Positions 3,526-26,413 of a DNA stretch of 32,648 nt are shown piece after piece. A program made the translations under genes and the position numbers. This DNA is from an uncultured Clostridia bacterium (GTDB taxonomy: Bacteria; Bacillota; Clostridia; Christensenellales; Borkfalkiaceae). Below the pieces are notes generated by a model, which saw nothing but the letters and a program-made list of their open reading frames with translations, ran no database searches and was not told the DNA's origin. Position 1 is the first letter of the stretch. Each line of letters begins with the position of its first letter. The stretch lies in assembly GCA_944367045.1 (NCBI GenBank), contig CALVWI010000019.1:1-32648 (forward strand), written 5' to 3'.

Positions 3526-3808
3526 CTTCTCGGGCGCTTCTTGAAATAACTGCCGCAAGCAGGAGTTCCCCTCCCGCCCTTTCTTAAAATAATGCTTCGA
3601 GCAGGGTTCCCCTGCGCTGAAGGCCCCAATTTGCCTCATACCTGAGGCTTACGGGGGAAAGGGTGAATGCGGGCGCAGTAAATTCGGAAGCCCCGAGGGT
3701 GCGCCCGCAGAGGGAAAACGAGCCGTCAAGACGCGCAGCGGCAAGCGGCGGTGTTTTCCCTCAAAATCGCGGAAAGATTTTTGCCTTTGCAAAAAGATTT
3801 TCGCGAAG
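3526..3808 (-). repeat. Structured intergenic element, copy 1 (between gyrB and gyrA)
   Basis: This copy fills the gyrB-gyrA gap and begins directly after the gyrB stop, read in the gyrB direction. Hairpins in that order are: E (3767-3806, TCGCG/CGCGA ends, 15 of 18 pairs, CTTT loop), D (3710-3719 with 3753-3762, 10 bp), C (3669-3677 with 3700-3708, 9 bp), B (3633-3638 with 3643-3648, loop 4) and A (3601-3606 with 3610-3615, GAA loop in the sense strand). Module A appears duplicated in degenerate form at 3541-3574. The final terminator hairpin present in copies 2 and 3 is reduced here to its first arm (about 3526-3540), with no partner arm. That would let transcription continue into gyrA. No open reading frame of note lies in it. 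Confidence 0.8.
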
Positions 3809-5722
3809 TCAAATGTCTAGGTCTTTTACAAGCGTCGCATTTTCCTCAATGAACTTGCGGCGAAGTGCCGGGCTCTCGCCCATTAAGATCGTGAACATCT
3901 TATCCGCCTCGACGGCGTCCTTCATGCTCACCTTGACGAGCGTGCGCGTCGCGGGGTTCATGGTCGTGTTCCACAGCTGCTCGGTGCTCATCTCGCCGAG
4001 GCCCTTGTAGCGCTGGTAGCTCACCTTGTTGCCGTTGGCGGCGTCGTAGGCGGTCTTCTCCTCCTCGGAATAGAGGTAGACGTCCTCTTTTCCCTTGACG
4101 CTCGCCTTGTAGAGGGGCGGCATCGCCGAATAGACGTGGCCGTGCTCGATGAGCGGGCGCATATAGCGGAAGAGGAAGGTGAGAAGCAAGATTCGGATGT
4201 GCGCGCCGTCGACATCGGCATCCGTCATGGAGATGATGCGGTCGTAGCGCAGCTTGCTCTCGTCGAAGTCGTCCAAAATGCCGCAGCCGAACGCCGTGAT
4301 CATGGCTTTGATCTCCGCGTTTTCAAGCACGCGGTTGAGGCGCACCTTCTCGACGTTGAGAATTTTGCCGCGGAGGGGCAGGATGGCCTGGAACCTTCTG
4401 TCGCGGCCCGACTTTGCGGTGCCGCCTGCCGAGTCGCCCTCGACGATGTAAATTTCGCACAGTTCGGGACGGCGATCGGAGCAGTCGGCGAGCTTGCCGG
4501 GGAGCGCGCTCGTCTCTAAAATGCCCTTTCTTCTCGTGAGTTCGCGGGCGGAGCGGGCGGCGTCGCGCGCCTTCTGCGCCGTGATGCAGCGGAGGACCAG
4601 CTCCCTCGCCTCCTGCGGGTGCTCCTCGATGTAGGTGCCGAAGCGGTCGACGACGCACTTCGAGACAAACCCGCGGATAAAGCTGTTGTTGAGCTTATCC
4701 TTGGTCTGCGACTCGAACTGCGCGTTCTCGAGCTTGACGGAGACGACGGCCGTGATGCCCTCGCGGACGTCCTCGCCCGTGAGACGGTCGCTCTCCTTTA
4801 AGATGTTGAGCTTGTGGCCCGCGTCGTTGATGACCTTGGTGAGGGCGAGCTTCAAGCCCTCGACGTGCGTGCCGCCGTCGATGGTGTTGACGTTGTTGGC
4901 GTACGAGTAGATGACCTCGTTGTAGCTCTCGTTGTACTGAAGGGCGATCTCGCACACCGTGGTGCCGTCGCGCTCTTCAAAGTAGAGGGGCTCGGAAAAG
5001 AGCGTCTCGGAGCCGCTGTTGAGCTCCTCGACGAGCTCGCGGATGCCGCCCTCGTAGCAGAATTTGTCGCTTCTCGGCTTTTCGCCGCGAAGGTCGGTCA
5101 AAGTGATGGTGAGTCCGCGGTTGAGGAAGGCGAGCTCCTTGAGGCGGACGCGCAGATGATCGTACTTGAAGACGGTCGTCTCGAAAATTTCGCTGTCGGG
5201 CAAAAACGTGACTTTGGTGCCCGTCTTATCCGTCTTGCCGACGATGGCGAGCGGGCGCTGGGGCACGCCGCGATTGTAAATTTGGCGGTAGACGTTGCCG
5301 TGCTGATAGACCTCGGCCTCCAGCCATTCGGAGAGCGCGTTGACCGCCTTGACGCCCACGCCGTGGAGGCCGCTCGAGACCTTGTAGCCCGAGTCGCCGC
5401 CGAACTTGCCGCCCGCGTTGACCTTGGTAAAGACGACTTCGACGGTGGAGACGCCCTCTTTCGGGTGAATTTCCGTGGGAATGCCGCGGCCGTTGTCCTC
5501 GACGGTGCAGGAGCCGTCGGGGTTGATGGTGACTTCGATGTGCGTGCAGTAGCCCGCGAGCGCCTCGTCGATGGAGTTATCGACGACCTCGCTCACGAGG
5601 TGGTGCAAGCCCCGCTCGTCGGTGGAGCTGATATACATACCGGGGCGCTTGCGGATGTGCTCGAGGCCGTCGAGCACCTGAATTTGTTCCGCGCCGTACG
5701 CGCCCTCTACCTTATCGGGCAT
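3809..5722 (-). CDS. gyrB: DNA gyrase subunit B
   Basis: This is the ATPase subunit of gyrase (637 residues). The length is the usual Gram-positive form without the extra C-terminal insert of E. coli. Visible landmarks are the GHKL ATP site ([10 protein letters not shown], then VEDNGRGIP and [14 protein letters not shown]), GGTHVEG, the TOPRIM block [27 protein letters not shown], the metal-binding [10 protein letters not shown] and the C-terminal QRYKGLGEM. The ATG at 5722 follows GGAGG at close range. A transcript from the promoter at 5801-5831 would have a leader of about 70 bases with an alternating purine-pyrimidine tract and a small hairpin. gyrA follows after the structured element. 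GyrB is preferred over ParE because gyrA, with its GyrA box, is the partner. Confidence 0.98.
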
Positions 5723-5759
5723 AAATACCTCCGTTCGGGCAGCCGCTGCCGCCCGTCTT

Positions 5760-5783
5760 TACGCGCGCGTGCGTACGCGCGTA
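5760..5783. other. 24-bp alternating purine-pyrimidine tract in the gyrB leader
   Basis: All 24 bases alternate pyrimidine and purine, and most steps are CG. The tract contains the perfect 12-bp palindrome GTACGCGCGTAC (5771-5782). Such tracts can adopt left-handed Z-DNA under negative supercoiling. It lies between the predicted gyrB transcription start and the ribosome site. Confidence 0.6.
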
Positions 5784-5800
5784 CAAATATATTTCCACTT

Positions 5801-5831
5801 TGATTATACCATACCTTCTCTCAAAAGTACA
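5801..5831 (-). promoter_or_regulatory. Extended -10 promoter of gyrB
   Basis: The minus strand has a perfect TATAAT (5801-5806) preceded by TGG, giving an extended -10. The best -35-like hexamer, TGTACT (5826-5831), is poor and 19 bp away, so recognition probably depends on the extended -10. Confidence 0.65.
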
Positions 5832-5873
5832 GCGAATGTGCCGGCTTTCAGGGAAATTTTTTCTTGAGACGCG

Positions 5874-5908
5874 AAAAAAGGCGCGTGAGACGGCTCACAC
5901 GCCCTTTT
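5874..5908. terminator. Bidirectional terminator behind dus
   Basis: A stem of about 13 bp (sense AAAAGGGCGTGTGAG paired with CTCACGCGCCTTTTTT, one bulged G) follows the dihydrouridine synthase stop by 55 bases. It has T runs on both strands. Confidence 0.8.
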
Positions 5909-5962
5909 ATATGGTTTATGAGGTGGGATACGCCCGCCGCGCTTTGCCCGCACAGGCCGCCC

Positions 5963-25631: not shown

Positions 25632-25808
25632 TTATTTTTCGGTTACAGAGATCTCGAACTGTTTCCCGTCGGGGAGCGTATAGACGAGCTTTTCGCCCTC
25701 CTGAACGCACGCGCCCACGAAGTACTCGTCGATGAGCGGCTTTAACGACGCTGCGATGTCCTCCGCCGTCACGACAGTTCCCTCTTCAAAAACGTGTTTC
25801 TCTTGCAT
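25632..25808 (-). CDS. 58-residue acidic protein of unknown function behind an attenuator
   Basis: The protein reads MQEKHVFEEGTVVTAEDIAA and continues through SLKPLIDEYFVGACVQEGEK to LVYTLPDGKQFEISVTEK. It is acidic, with two helices and a likely beta hairpin at the end. No family is recognised. The ATG at 25808 has a full AAGGAGG eight bases upstream. The long leader, with terminator and alternative stem, indicates tight control of this small gene. It is single between two copies of the structured element. Options include a regulator, an antitoxin-like or a small metabolic protein, and none is supported over the others. Confidence 0.75.
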   Translation of the reverse strand: MQEKHVFEEGTVVTAEDIAASLKPLIDEYFVGACVQEGEKLVYTLPDGKQFEISVTEK

Positions 25809-25821
25809 CTCAAATTCCTCC

Positions 25822-25863
25822 TTAAAAATAATAAAGCGTGCCCCCAATGGAGACACGCTGCAT
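25822..25863 (-). CDS. Possible 13-residue leader peptide in the attenuator
   Basis: The frame MQRVSIGGTLYYF has GGAGG five bases before its ATG. It runs through the terminator stem and ends at a TAA that overlaps the AAGGAGG of the 58-residue gene. A ribosome translating it would open the terminator. The Shine-Dalgarno bases are part of the alternative 8-bp stem. Whether it is translated is not known. Confidence 0.4.
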   Translation of the reverse strand: MQRVSIGGTLYYF

Positions 25864-25947
25864 CAGCACCTCCATTGTTGTCACACAATACACCTAGAGT
25901 ATAGGAAAAGTGAGGTACAAAATGCCATTTTGTACCTATACTCTAGG
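25834..25947 (-). promoter_or_regulatory. Attenuator-like leader with mutually exclusive hairpins
   Basis: The transcript has first a nested palindrome: outer arms of 13 bp (25935-25947 with 25893-25905) around an inner 11-bp repeat (25926-25936 with 25914-25924). Next comes CAATGGAG (25870-25877), which pairs perfectly with CTCCATTG (25845-25852). That second segment is also part of the terminator stem (25849-25859 with 25835-25845, 11 pairs, two G-U, followed by TTTATTATTTTT). Only one of the two can form at a time. This is the layout of transcription attenuators and riboswitch platforms. The leader matches no riboswitch class I know. Confidence 0.65.
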
Positions 25948-25983
25948 AATAAAAATTTATATTTAGTATTATGTGACGAGAAT

Positions 25984-26012
25984 ATTATAGCATGGCTTCT
26001 CCCAAAAATCAA
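25984..26012 (-). promoter_or_regulatory. Sigma-A promoter of the 58-residue gene
   Basis: TTGATT (26007-26012), 17 bp and TATAAT (25984-25989) on the minus strand. The leader would be about 170 bases. Confidence 0.75.
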
Positions 26013-26032
26013 GACGAAAGACAAAAAAAACA

Positions 26033-26073
26033 GGCGAAACAAAAGCGAAAACGCCCGTCTTTCGACAGGCGTT
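26033..26073 (-). terminator. Terminator ending element copy 3
   Basis: AACGCCTGTC and GACGGGCGTT (10-bp arms) around GAAA are followed on the minus strand by TTCGCTTTTG. It ends transcription from the esterase and overlaps the region just before the next promoter. Confidence 0.82.
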
Positions 26074-26413
26074 CTTGATTTCATTGCGCAAAAAGGCTAT
26101 GCCTTCGCCCGCGCCCCCAATTTGCGCATACTTGCGCTTTCGGGGGAAAGAATGAATGCGGGCGCAGTAAATTGGAAAGCCCTGAAAGTGCGCCCGCAGA
26201 AAGAAAACGAGCCGTCAAACGCAACAGCGTGTGCGGCGGTGTTTTCTTTCAAACTCACGGCAAAGATTTTTTCTCAAACGGCGCAAGGAGAACGCCGTTT
26301 TTGGGCACCGCTCGCGCTTTGCGTATGCGCTCGCTCATCTCGCAAGGGGAAAACAGCACACCGTGCTGTTTATAGAACACCCTTGCTCGTCCTTTGCAAA
26401 AAGATTTGCGTGA
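26050..26413 (-). repeat. Structured intergenic element, copy 3 (behind the esterase)
   Basis: Hairpins in sense order are: E outer arms (26398-26413 with 26255-26271), D (26241-26250 with 26199-26208, 10 bp), C (26189-26197 with 26158-26166, 9 bp), B (26133-26137 with 26124-26128) and the terminator at 26050-26073. In place of hairpin A it has AAGGC-ATA-GCCTT. The loop of E is enlarged by about 125 bp (26272-26397), which holds two more hairpins: AAACGGCG/CGCCGTTT (26276-26300) and AACAGCAC/GTGCTGTT (26352-26370). The element overlaps the last 13 codons of the esterase. Sequence identity to copy 1 is highest across C and D. Confidence 0.8.

Follow-up and report, generated by a model that had tools for sequence, protein, structure and literature searches.

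A clade-restricted family of mosaic hairpin repeats adjoining stop codons in gut Clostridia

What are the structured elements that lie behind gyrB, a glycosyltransferase gene and an esterase gene in a stretch of DNA from an uncultured Clostridia bacterium (Borkfalkiaceae)? The stretch, 32,648 nucleotides (nt) in length and called the window below, is contig C19 (CALVWI010000019.1) of a 46-contig, 1.89 Mb assembly (GCA_944367045.1). An original prediction made from its letters alone proposed either a new noncoding RNA or 3' untranslated element, or a mobile non-autonomous element. We find that the copies are members of a new family of mosaic hairpin repeats, one that is confined to a single clade and whose general kind is known. 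The repeat is roughly 160-240 nt long, longer with inserts, joins a 3' core of two hairpins (B and A) to one of several 5' halves, and was found solely in one gut Clostridia family in the samples searched. Its copies are scattered, occupy orthologous sites in some relatives and not in others, occur nested and in tandem, mix their hairpin variants, adjoin stop codons and favor the sense of the preceding gene. As the probable explanation we favor a non-autonomous intergenic mobile repeat, a BOX- or BIME-like mosaic of hairpin cassettes that is moved in trans.

The three copies of the window are present as first described, with the block order E-D-C-B-A and the quoted stems, and each runs in the sense of the gene that precedes it. 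Their parts, read directly from the sequence, are given here with the core matches of a covariance model; the two terminator-like hairpins are placed outside the conserved repeat from the sequence and from the 3' limit of the repeat.

3582..3807, minus strand: copy 1, type I; E 3767-3807, D 3710-3762, C 3668-3709, B 3633-3648, A 3595-3622, 3' tail 3582-3594; model core 3571-3663, 90.6 bits
25327..25536, plus strand: copy 2, type I variant; E 25327-25368, D 25369-25414, C 25415-25453, B 25470-25485, A 25495-25523, 3' tail 25524-25536; model core 25455-25547, 77.5 bits
26074..26414, minus strand: copy 3, type I; E 5' arm 26391-26414, module F 26273-26390, E 3' arm 26255-26272, D 26199-26250, C 26157-26198, B 26124-26137, A 26086-26114, 3' tail 26074-26085; model core 26063-26152, 56.5 bits
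25308..25326, plus strand: truncated E-like piece that follows the glycosyltransferase stop and precedes copy 2, putatively a remnant
25541..25575, plus strand: terminator-like hairpin 3' of copy 2, outside the conserved repeat
26050..26073, minus strand: terminator-like hairpin 3' of copy 3, outside the conserved repeat

The original prediction placed all three copies directly behind stop codons, which is accurate for copy 1, starting 1 nt past the gyrB stop (3809-3811). Copy 2 starts 20 nt past the glycosyltransferase stop (25305-25307), with the E-like piece in between, and copy 3 starts inside the esterase gene (stop at 26370-26372), its E 5' arm at 26391-26414 being esterase coding sequence. 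The two forms of stem A that had been quoted are as stated, but copy 3 carries a third variant, GAAGGC-ATA-GCCTTT, and its E loop is occupied by module F, of about 118 nt. The terminator that had been counted as the last block is not part of the repeat: across 206 copies the conserved 3' core consists of B, the motif AAATTG, A and then about 12-15 nt, where conservation stops, and a simple script found a terminator-like hairpin within about 118 nt on the 3' side in 30 of 210 copies. Copies lying tail to tail on opposite strands share one bidirectional terminator-like hairpin (AACGCCYGTC ... GACRGGCGTT) at L061, L055, L063, L057 and L066, all in the window's own genome.

The family is far larger than the three copies first proposed. 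In the window's own assembly (G000), BLAST with copy 1 finds 43 places, and a covariance model of the B-A core (R1, built on 43 of 47 cores, 4 being left out of alignment A1) finds 48 cores; the same kind of search in related genomes, which the original prediction had suggested, finds more in the host's family. By BLAST the repeat occurs in 18 of 24 congeners and in none of 16 genomes that represent other genera of the order. With R1, 10 of 200 genomes of the order are positive, all in the host's family. A second model, R2, was made from 150 aligned matches (alignment A2 takes 150 of 164 matches) and detects the core in 35 of 121 genomes and in five of the 18 genera sampled from the host's family; all of these counts from large genome scans are lower bounds, stricter filters having been used. 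Across the class, R2 is positive in 4 of 291 genomes, just one of them outside the host's family (G257, 25.3 bits), and this sole weak hit lies in surroundings that by eye resemble protein-coding DNA and looks like chance. A pattern scan of named genomes gave at least 117 stretches, on 80 of which R1 was run; among the 80 matches listed, all are labelled uncultured Clostridia or Firmicutes or Candidatus Borkfalkia. Carriage by phages was considered and set aside: two viral contigs that match a short pattern share one sequence, and no flanking hairpins were seen in them.

The statement that no named RNA family has this layout agrees with searches of Rfam release 15, where the window and 19 further loci with copies gave no match at the gathering score. 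With relaxed settings copy 1 still had no match, and the surroundings of copies 2 and 3 yielded just scores far under the cut-offs of the families concerned. Identity with a known Rfam 15 family is thus largely refuted, and no such repeat appeared among the open-licence papers listed for Borkfalkia repeats and Borkfalkiaceae noncoding RNA. A diverged relative of a known structured or mobile RNA, such as a ribozyme, a group II intron fragment or an IscB/TnpB-type guide RNA, would be of similar size, multi-hairpin layout and copy number; given the Rfam results and the lack of a reverse transcriptase in the window's own genome (IscB and TnpB were not searched for), we regard this as highly improbable.

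The repeat is a mosaic. The B-A core carries one of at least three sorts of 5' half: in type I this is E-D-C, in type II it is E together with a hinge that contains a small TGTTCTCAAAGACA hairpin, and type III has a variant hinge; in the window's own genome a script assigned 16 copies to type I, 24 to type II and 5 to type III (45 copies). Variable modules around shared ones are the arrangement known from BOX elements. Like miniature inverted-repeat transposable elements, the repeat is small, dispersed and without coding capacity of its own (48 cores; no recurrent gene inside or beside copies). Copies are also nested: of the 123 hairpins that a script found in 222 contexts, 30 have a constant distance of 59-60 nt from E to B while E itself spans 36 to 213 nt, and the E loop takes in other repeats. 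Among 221 unique copies, 68 have a neighboring copy on the same strand and 25 on the opposite strand. Module F, of about 118-125 nt and with inverted repeats of its own, occurs in the E loop or just 3' of E in several copies of the window's own genome, both in the window (26273-26390) and at L054, L057, L058, L061, L062 and L066, and may be a small mobile element in its own right. The whole element also forms tandem arrays, with steps of about 150-300 nt, at L017, L170, L187, L110 and L117; such arrays suggest insertion behind a previous copy or unequal recombination.

A comparison of loci with and without the element, also put forward in the original prediction, showed orthologous sites that hold the element in some species and lack it in others, a pattern that fits its mobile option. 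For instance, the gyrB-gyrA spacer is readable at 26 of the 29 gyrB loci sampled in the genus, and the core is present in 8 of the 26 (the window's own genome included; one in antisense only). Five of the unfilled spacers measure 8-42 nt, and the remaining ones contain other sequence, 87-747 nt in length. An all-against-all search of the loci gave 121 filled/empty rows, many of which repeat the same sites; among the ten pairs displayed is an insertion that separates two genes whose stop and start codons overlap in the relative without it. In a second example, the glycosyltransferase site is filled in G000 and in G043, with different forms, and empty in G001; the G043 form is apparently nested in the remnant of another copy. 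Lastly, some insertions took away the native stop and lengthened the protein. The esterase of G043 terminates in half-E sequence with no further element, which either was left behind by a lost copy or gave rise to the E sequence. The C-terminus FTKIFLQR of the esterase is encoded by bases matching hairpin E in both species (L263 of G043; window 26370-26414). Other repeat families, the CTTGCCCACCCCTTGAGGGGTGGGTGG-type and CTCCCCCTCAAGGGGGAGC-type hairpins, are present in the gyrB-gyrA spacer of congeners lacking the element (L033, L034, L041, L046, L048) and also within E loops elsewhere (L164, L169, L018).

Paired changes in the stems had been read as the sign that RNA (or single-stranded DNA) structure is under selection. 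The changes themselves are real: two-sided changes that keep pairing occur in every stem, above shuffled and slid controls. In alignment A1 (43 sequences), 89.1% of cells pair, compared with 69.7% after shuffling, and the covariation score is 0.485 (0.169 shuffled; at most 0.181 in slid controls). Alignments A2 and A3, both fitted to the structure, score 0.518 and 0.602, and the 23 full type I copies score 0.344 against 0.156 shuffled. At least nine of ten positions of the C stem are paired in 38 of 64 copies, compared with 58 of 1240 swapped controls; an automatic test of the E stem was weak (35/107 versus 276/1899 swapped controls). The measure of further pair types was not above shuffles in A1 or A3, and RNAalifold recovered the hand-set structure in part (on A1, nine pairs in A and none in B; on A5, B and the inner stem of A, with E and the hinge not recovered). 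RNA folding of each window copy beats all shuffles tried (z = -4.66, -7.51 and -4.60).

What the covariation means depends on the kinds of pairs. Selection on RNA should put G-U pairs clearly ahead of A-C mismatches, and we found no such tolerance of G-U in unique stems, which hold 37 G-U and 54 A-C in 1634 cells (with a crude E set), or 10 G-U and 20 A-C of 824 cells for the B, A and C stems alone. By comparison, tRNA acceptor stems from the same DNA hold 6 G-U and 1 A-C of 112 cells, a small control of 16 stems. Raw counts over all copies do favor G-T (145 versus 70 A-C), because a few repeated alleles and the loop-closing pair inflate them. Helix D seemed rich in G-U in alignment A4 (29 G-U, 23 A-C), but this was an alignment artefact; realigned arms have 1 G-U and 6 A-C. 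The inference to RNA is therefore weakened. Four-gamete tests on the copies of the window's own genome found mixing between B and outer A in 16 of 150 tests, between B and inner A in 18 of 90 and between outer and inner A in 3 of 60. Whole hairpin cassettes are thus exchanged between copies, and many of the paired changes are therefore probably single cassette exchanges. This suggests that DNA-level exchange of hairpin cassettes can be the main source of strong two-sided covariation in a bacterial repeat, a point relevant to covariation-based searches for new RNAs.

Stems with Watson-Crick pairs only, cassette mixing and tandem arrays also suit an explanation in which the arms match chiefly as a side effect of DNA replication and repair: template switching and gene conversion would keep the palindromes perfect, and the repeats would spread rarely, with no function and no dedicated enzyme. 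In its available part, one report describes template switching as creating and maintaining RNA hairpins (PMC8794818). Taken alone, such a process does not account for the 48 dispersed copies with a defined 3' end, the filled and empty sites or the placement at stop codons, and we judge it quite unlikely.

This placement was counted on 226 of 240 matches (221 once identical contexts were removed), with genes called by a simple codon-usage script; the 226 are loci picked by pattern or model searches together with stretches of the window's own genome, and some named contigs duplicate genomes that also appear under unnamed handles. Of 90 solo copies with both neighbors known, 48 lie in sense and 17 in antisense to codirectional genes, 19 between convergent genes and 6 between divergent ones. 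A replication-strand bias is a conceivable cause of the orientation. Hairpin E begins 0-6 nt past the stop in 81 of the 120 copies that have a stop within 330 nt of hairpin B (the script found no E in 8), and in 17 of 24 cases between convergent genes. The median length of 28 convergent gaps that lack the repeat is 85 nt. Ten preceding genes that we examined are unrelated, encoding GyrB, a glycosyltransferase, a hydrolase, EF-Ts, ribosomal protein S9, an SPFH protein, SecA, acetate kinase, ParB and one protein with no family above the cut-off.

It is here that a cis-acting structured RNA, 3' untranslated or intercistronic, has its best case: its fold would protect the upstream message or act on the terminating ribosome, and selection would hold it behind stops. 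The tight spacing of E, set against the much longer repeat-free convergent gaps, the sense bias of solo copies (48 versus 17), the strong folding of the window copies and the conserved unpaired bases all speak for it. Against these stand the unique stems with no G-U excess where tRNA stems have one, a placement that turns over between close species, the lack of a common function among the ten preceding proteins examined, certain copies that extend or overlap a gene and the 17 of 90 solo copies that are antisense to both neighbors. We consider such an RNA possible, if doubtful. The same spacing could also arise if the element were aimed at stop codons, integrating or being kept a few bases downstream of them in gene sense, by way of terminating ribosomes or single-stranded DNA hairpins and with neither terminal repeats nor target duplication; this we think unlikely.

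Several observations weigh against a mobile repeat moved in trans, the explanation that we prefer. The tight spacing of E behind stops (81/120; 17/24 between convergent genes) exceeds what tolerance of insertions alone predicts and could reflect function, and a neutral passenger does not account for the conserved unpaired bases (AAATTG and the RGYA loop). Nor is a mobilizing enzyme at hand: G000, an assembly that is 93% complete, has no Y1 transposase (0 PF01797 matches) and no reverse transcriptase, and no long autonomous version and no recurrent mobile neighbor emerged among 233 neighbor proteins, whose two biggest clusters are gyrA and gyrB, from loci fetched on purpose. The absence of an enzyme is weak evidence, since assemblies of this type often lose mobile genes. 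Across the genus, Y1 transposase and reverse transcriptase each occur in 6 of 31 genomes; at least four of the six Y1-bearing genomes carry the repeat, and the repeat-rich G000 and G001 are without Y1. Given the absence of both from the window's own genome and their distribution in the genus, neither enzyme is supported as the mobilizer. We also saw no insertion between near-identical strains, and mobility is therefore inferred from differences between species.

The ends of the repeat do not resemble those of a miniature inverted-repeat transposable element. In 122 of 153 copies the longest complementary run between the first 8 and the last 14 nt is at most 3, and it never exceeds 5 (with a crude start finder and no shuffled control). 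Target-site duplications were not detected either: the mean shared run is 3.04 in a strict set of 100 copies, compared with 3.10 shuffled, and 3.24 compared with 3.20 in a larger set of 153, although duplications of 2-3 nt may have escaped detection. REP and IS200/IS605 elements are not known to need terminal inverted repeats or to leave a target duplication. By analogy, we propose that the repeat may be moved by similar logic, with an enzyme acting in trans on hairpins in single-stranded DNA. Recombination between copies, perhaps together with template switching within hairpins, would swap whole stems and so yield Watson-Crick covariation. Insertions would persist chiefly in the interval from a stop codon to the following ribosome-binding site; there they would probably be co-transcribed and may alter mRNA stability. 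With many copies in five genera and with both filled and empty sites, the family offers material for asking how BOX- and REP-like repeats can move with no terminal repeats and what makes them settle at stops.

Elsewhere in the window, a long palindrome at 25894-25948 (CCTAGAGTATAGG ... CCTATACTCTAGG around GGTACAAAATG/CATTTTGTACC) lies upstream of a small gene (25632-25856) and looks like an operator or another repeat.

The nearest kinds among known systems are BOX and the ERIC, RUP and Rickettsia palindromic elements. BOX elements of Streptococcus pneumoniae and S. suis, as the available part of PMC3049150 presents them, are intergenic composites of end modules and optional inner modules that are predicted to fold when transcribed, insert into one another and have no clear enzyme of their own, their mobilization by an insertion sequence being proposed from similarity of terminal repeats. 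The Clostridia repeat is likewise modular, foldable, intergenic, nested and without a clear enzyme of its own. It differs from BOX in its modules and host group (judged from the description of the BOX modules, not from alignment with boxA, boxB and boxC), in having no terminal repeats that we detected and in a 5' end that adjoins stop codons.

Mosaics of REP and BIME palindromes, with their REP-associated Y1 transposases, are similar in lying near gene ends, in both orientations and without classical terminal repeats, whereas the units described here are longer, contain several hairpins and occur in a genome with no Y1 transposase.

The available part of PMC2229807 describes ERIC, RUP and Rickettsia palindromic elements as small, non-autonomous, foldable intergenic repeats that sometimes extend reading frames and, in the case of ERIC, act on mRNA in one orientation. 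The present repeat is similar in being small, intergenic, foldable and probably non-autonomous and in sometimes extending reading frames; theirs typically have terminal inverted repeats and TA target duplications, neither of which we detected. Finally, 3161 candidate structured RNAs, palindromic ones included, have been predicted by computer from gut bacteria of the human microbiome (PMC8040213). As a predicted structured element of gut bacteria, the present family could be among the 3161; it is set apart by description, the available part of that source describing no multi-copy element behind stop codons.

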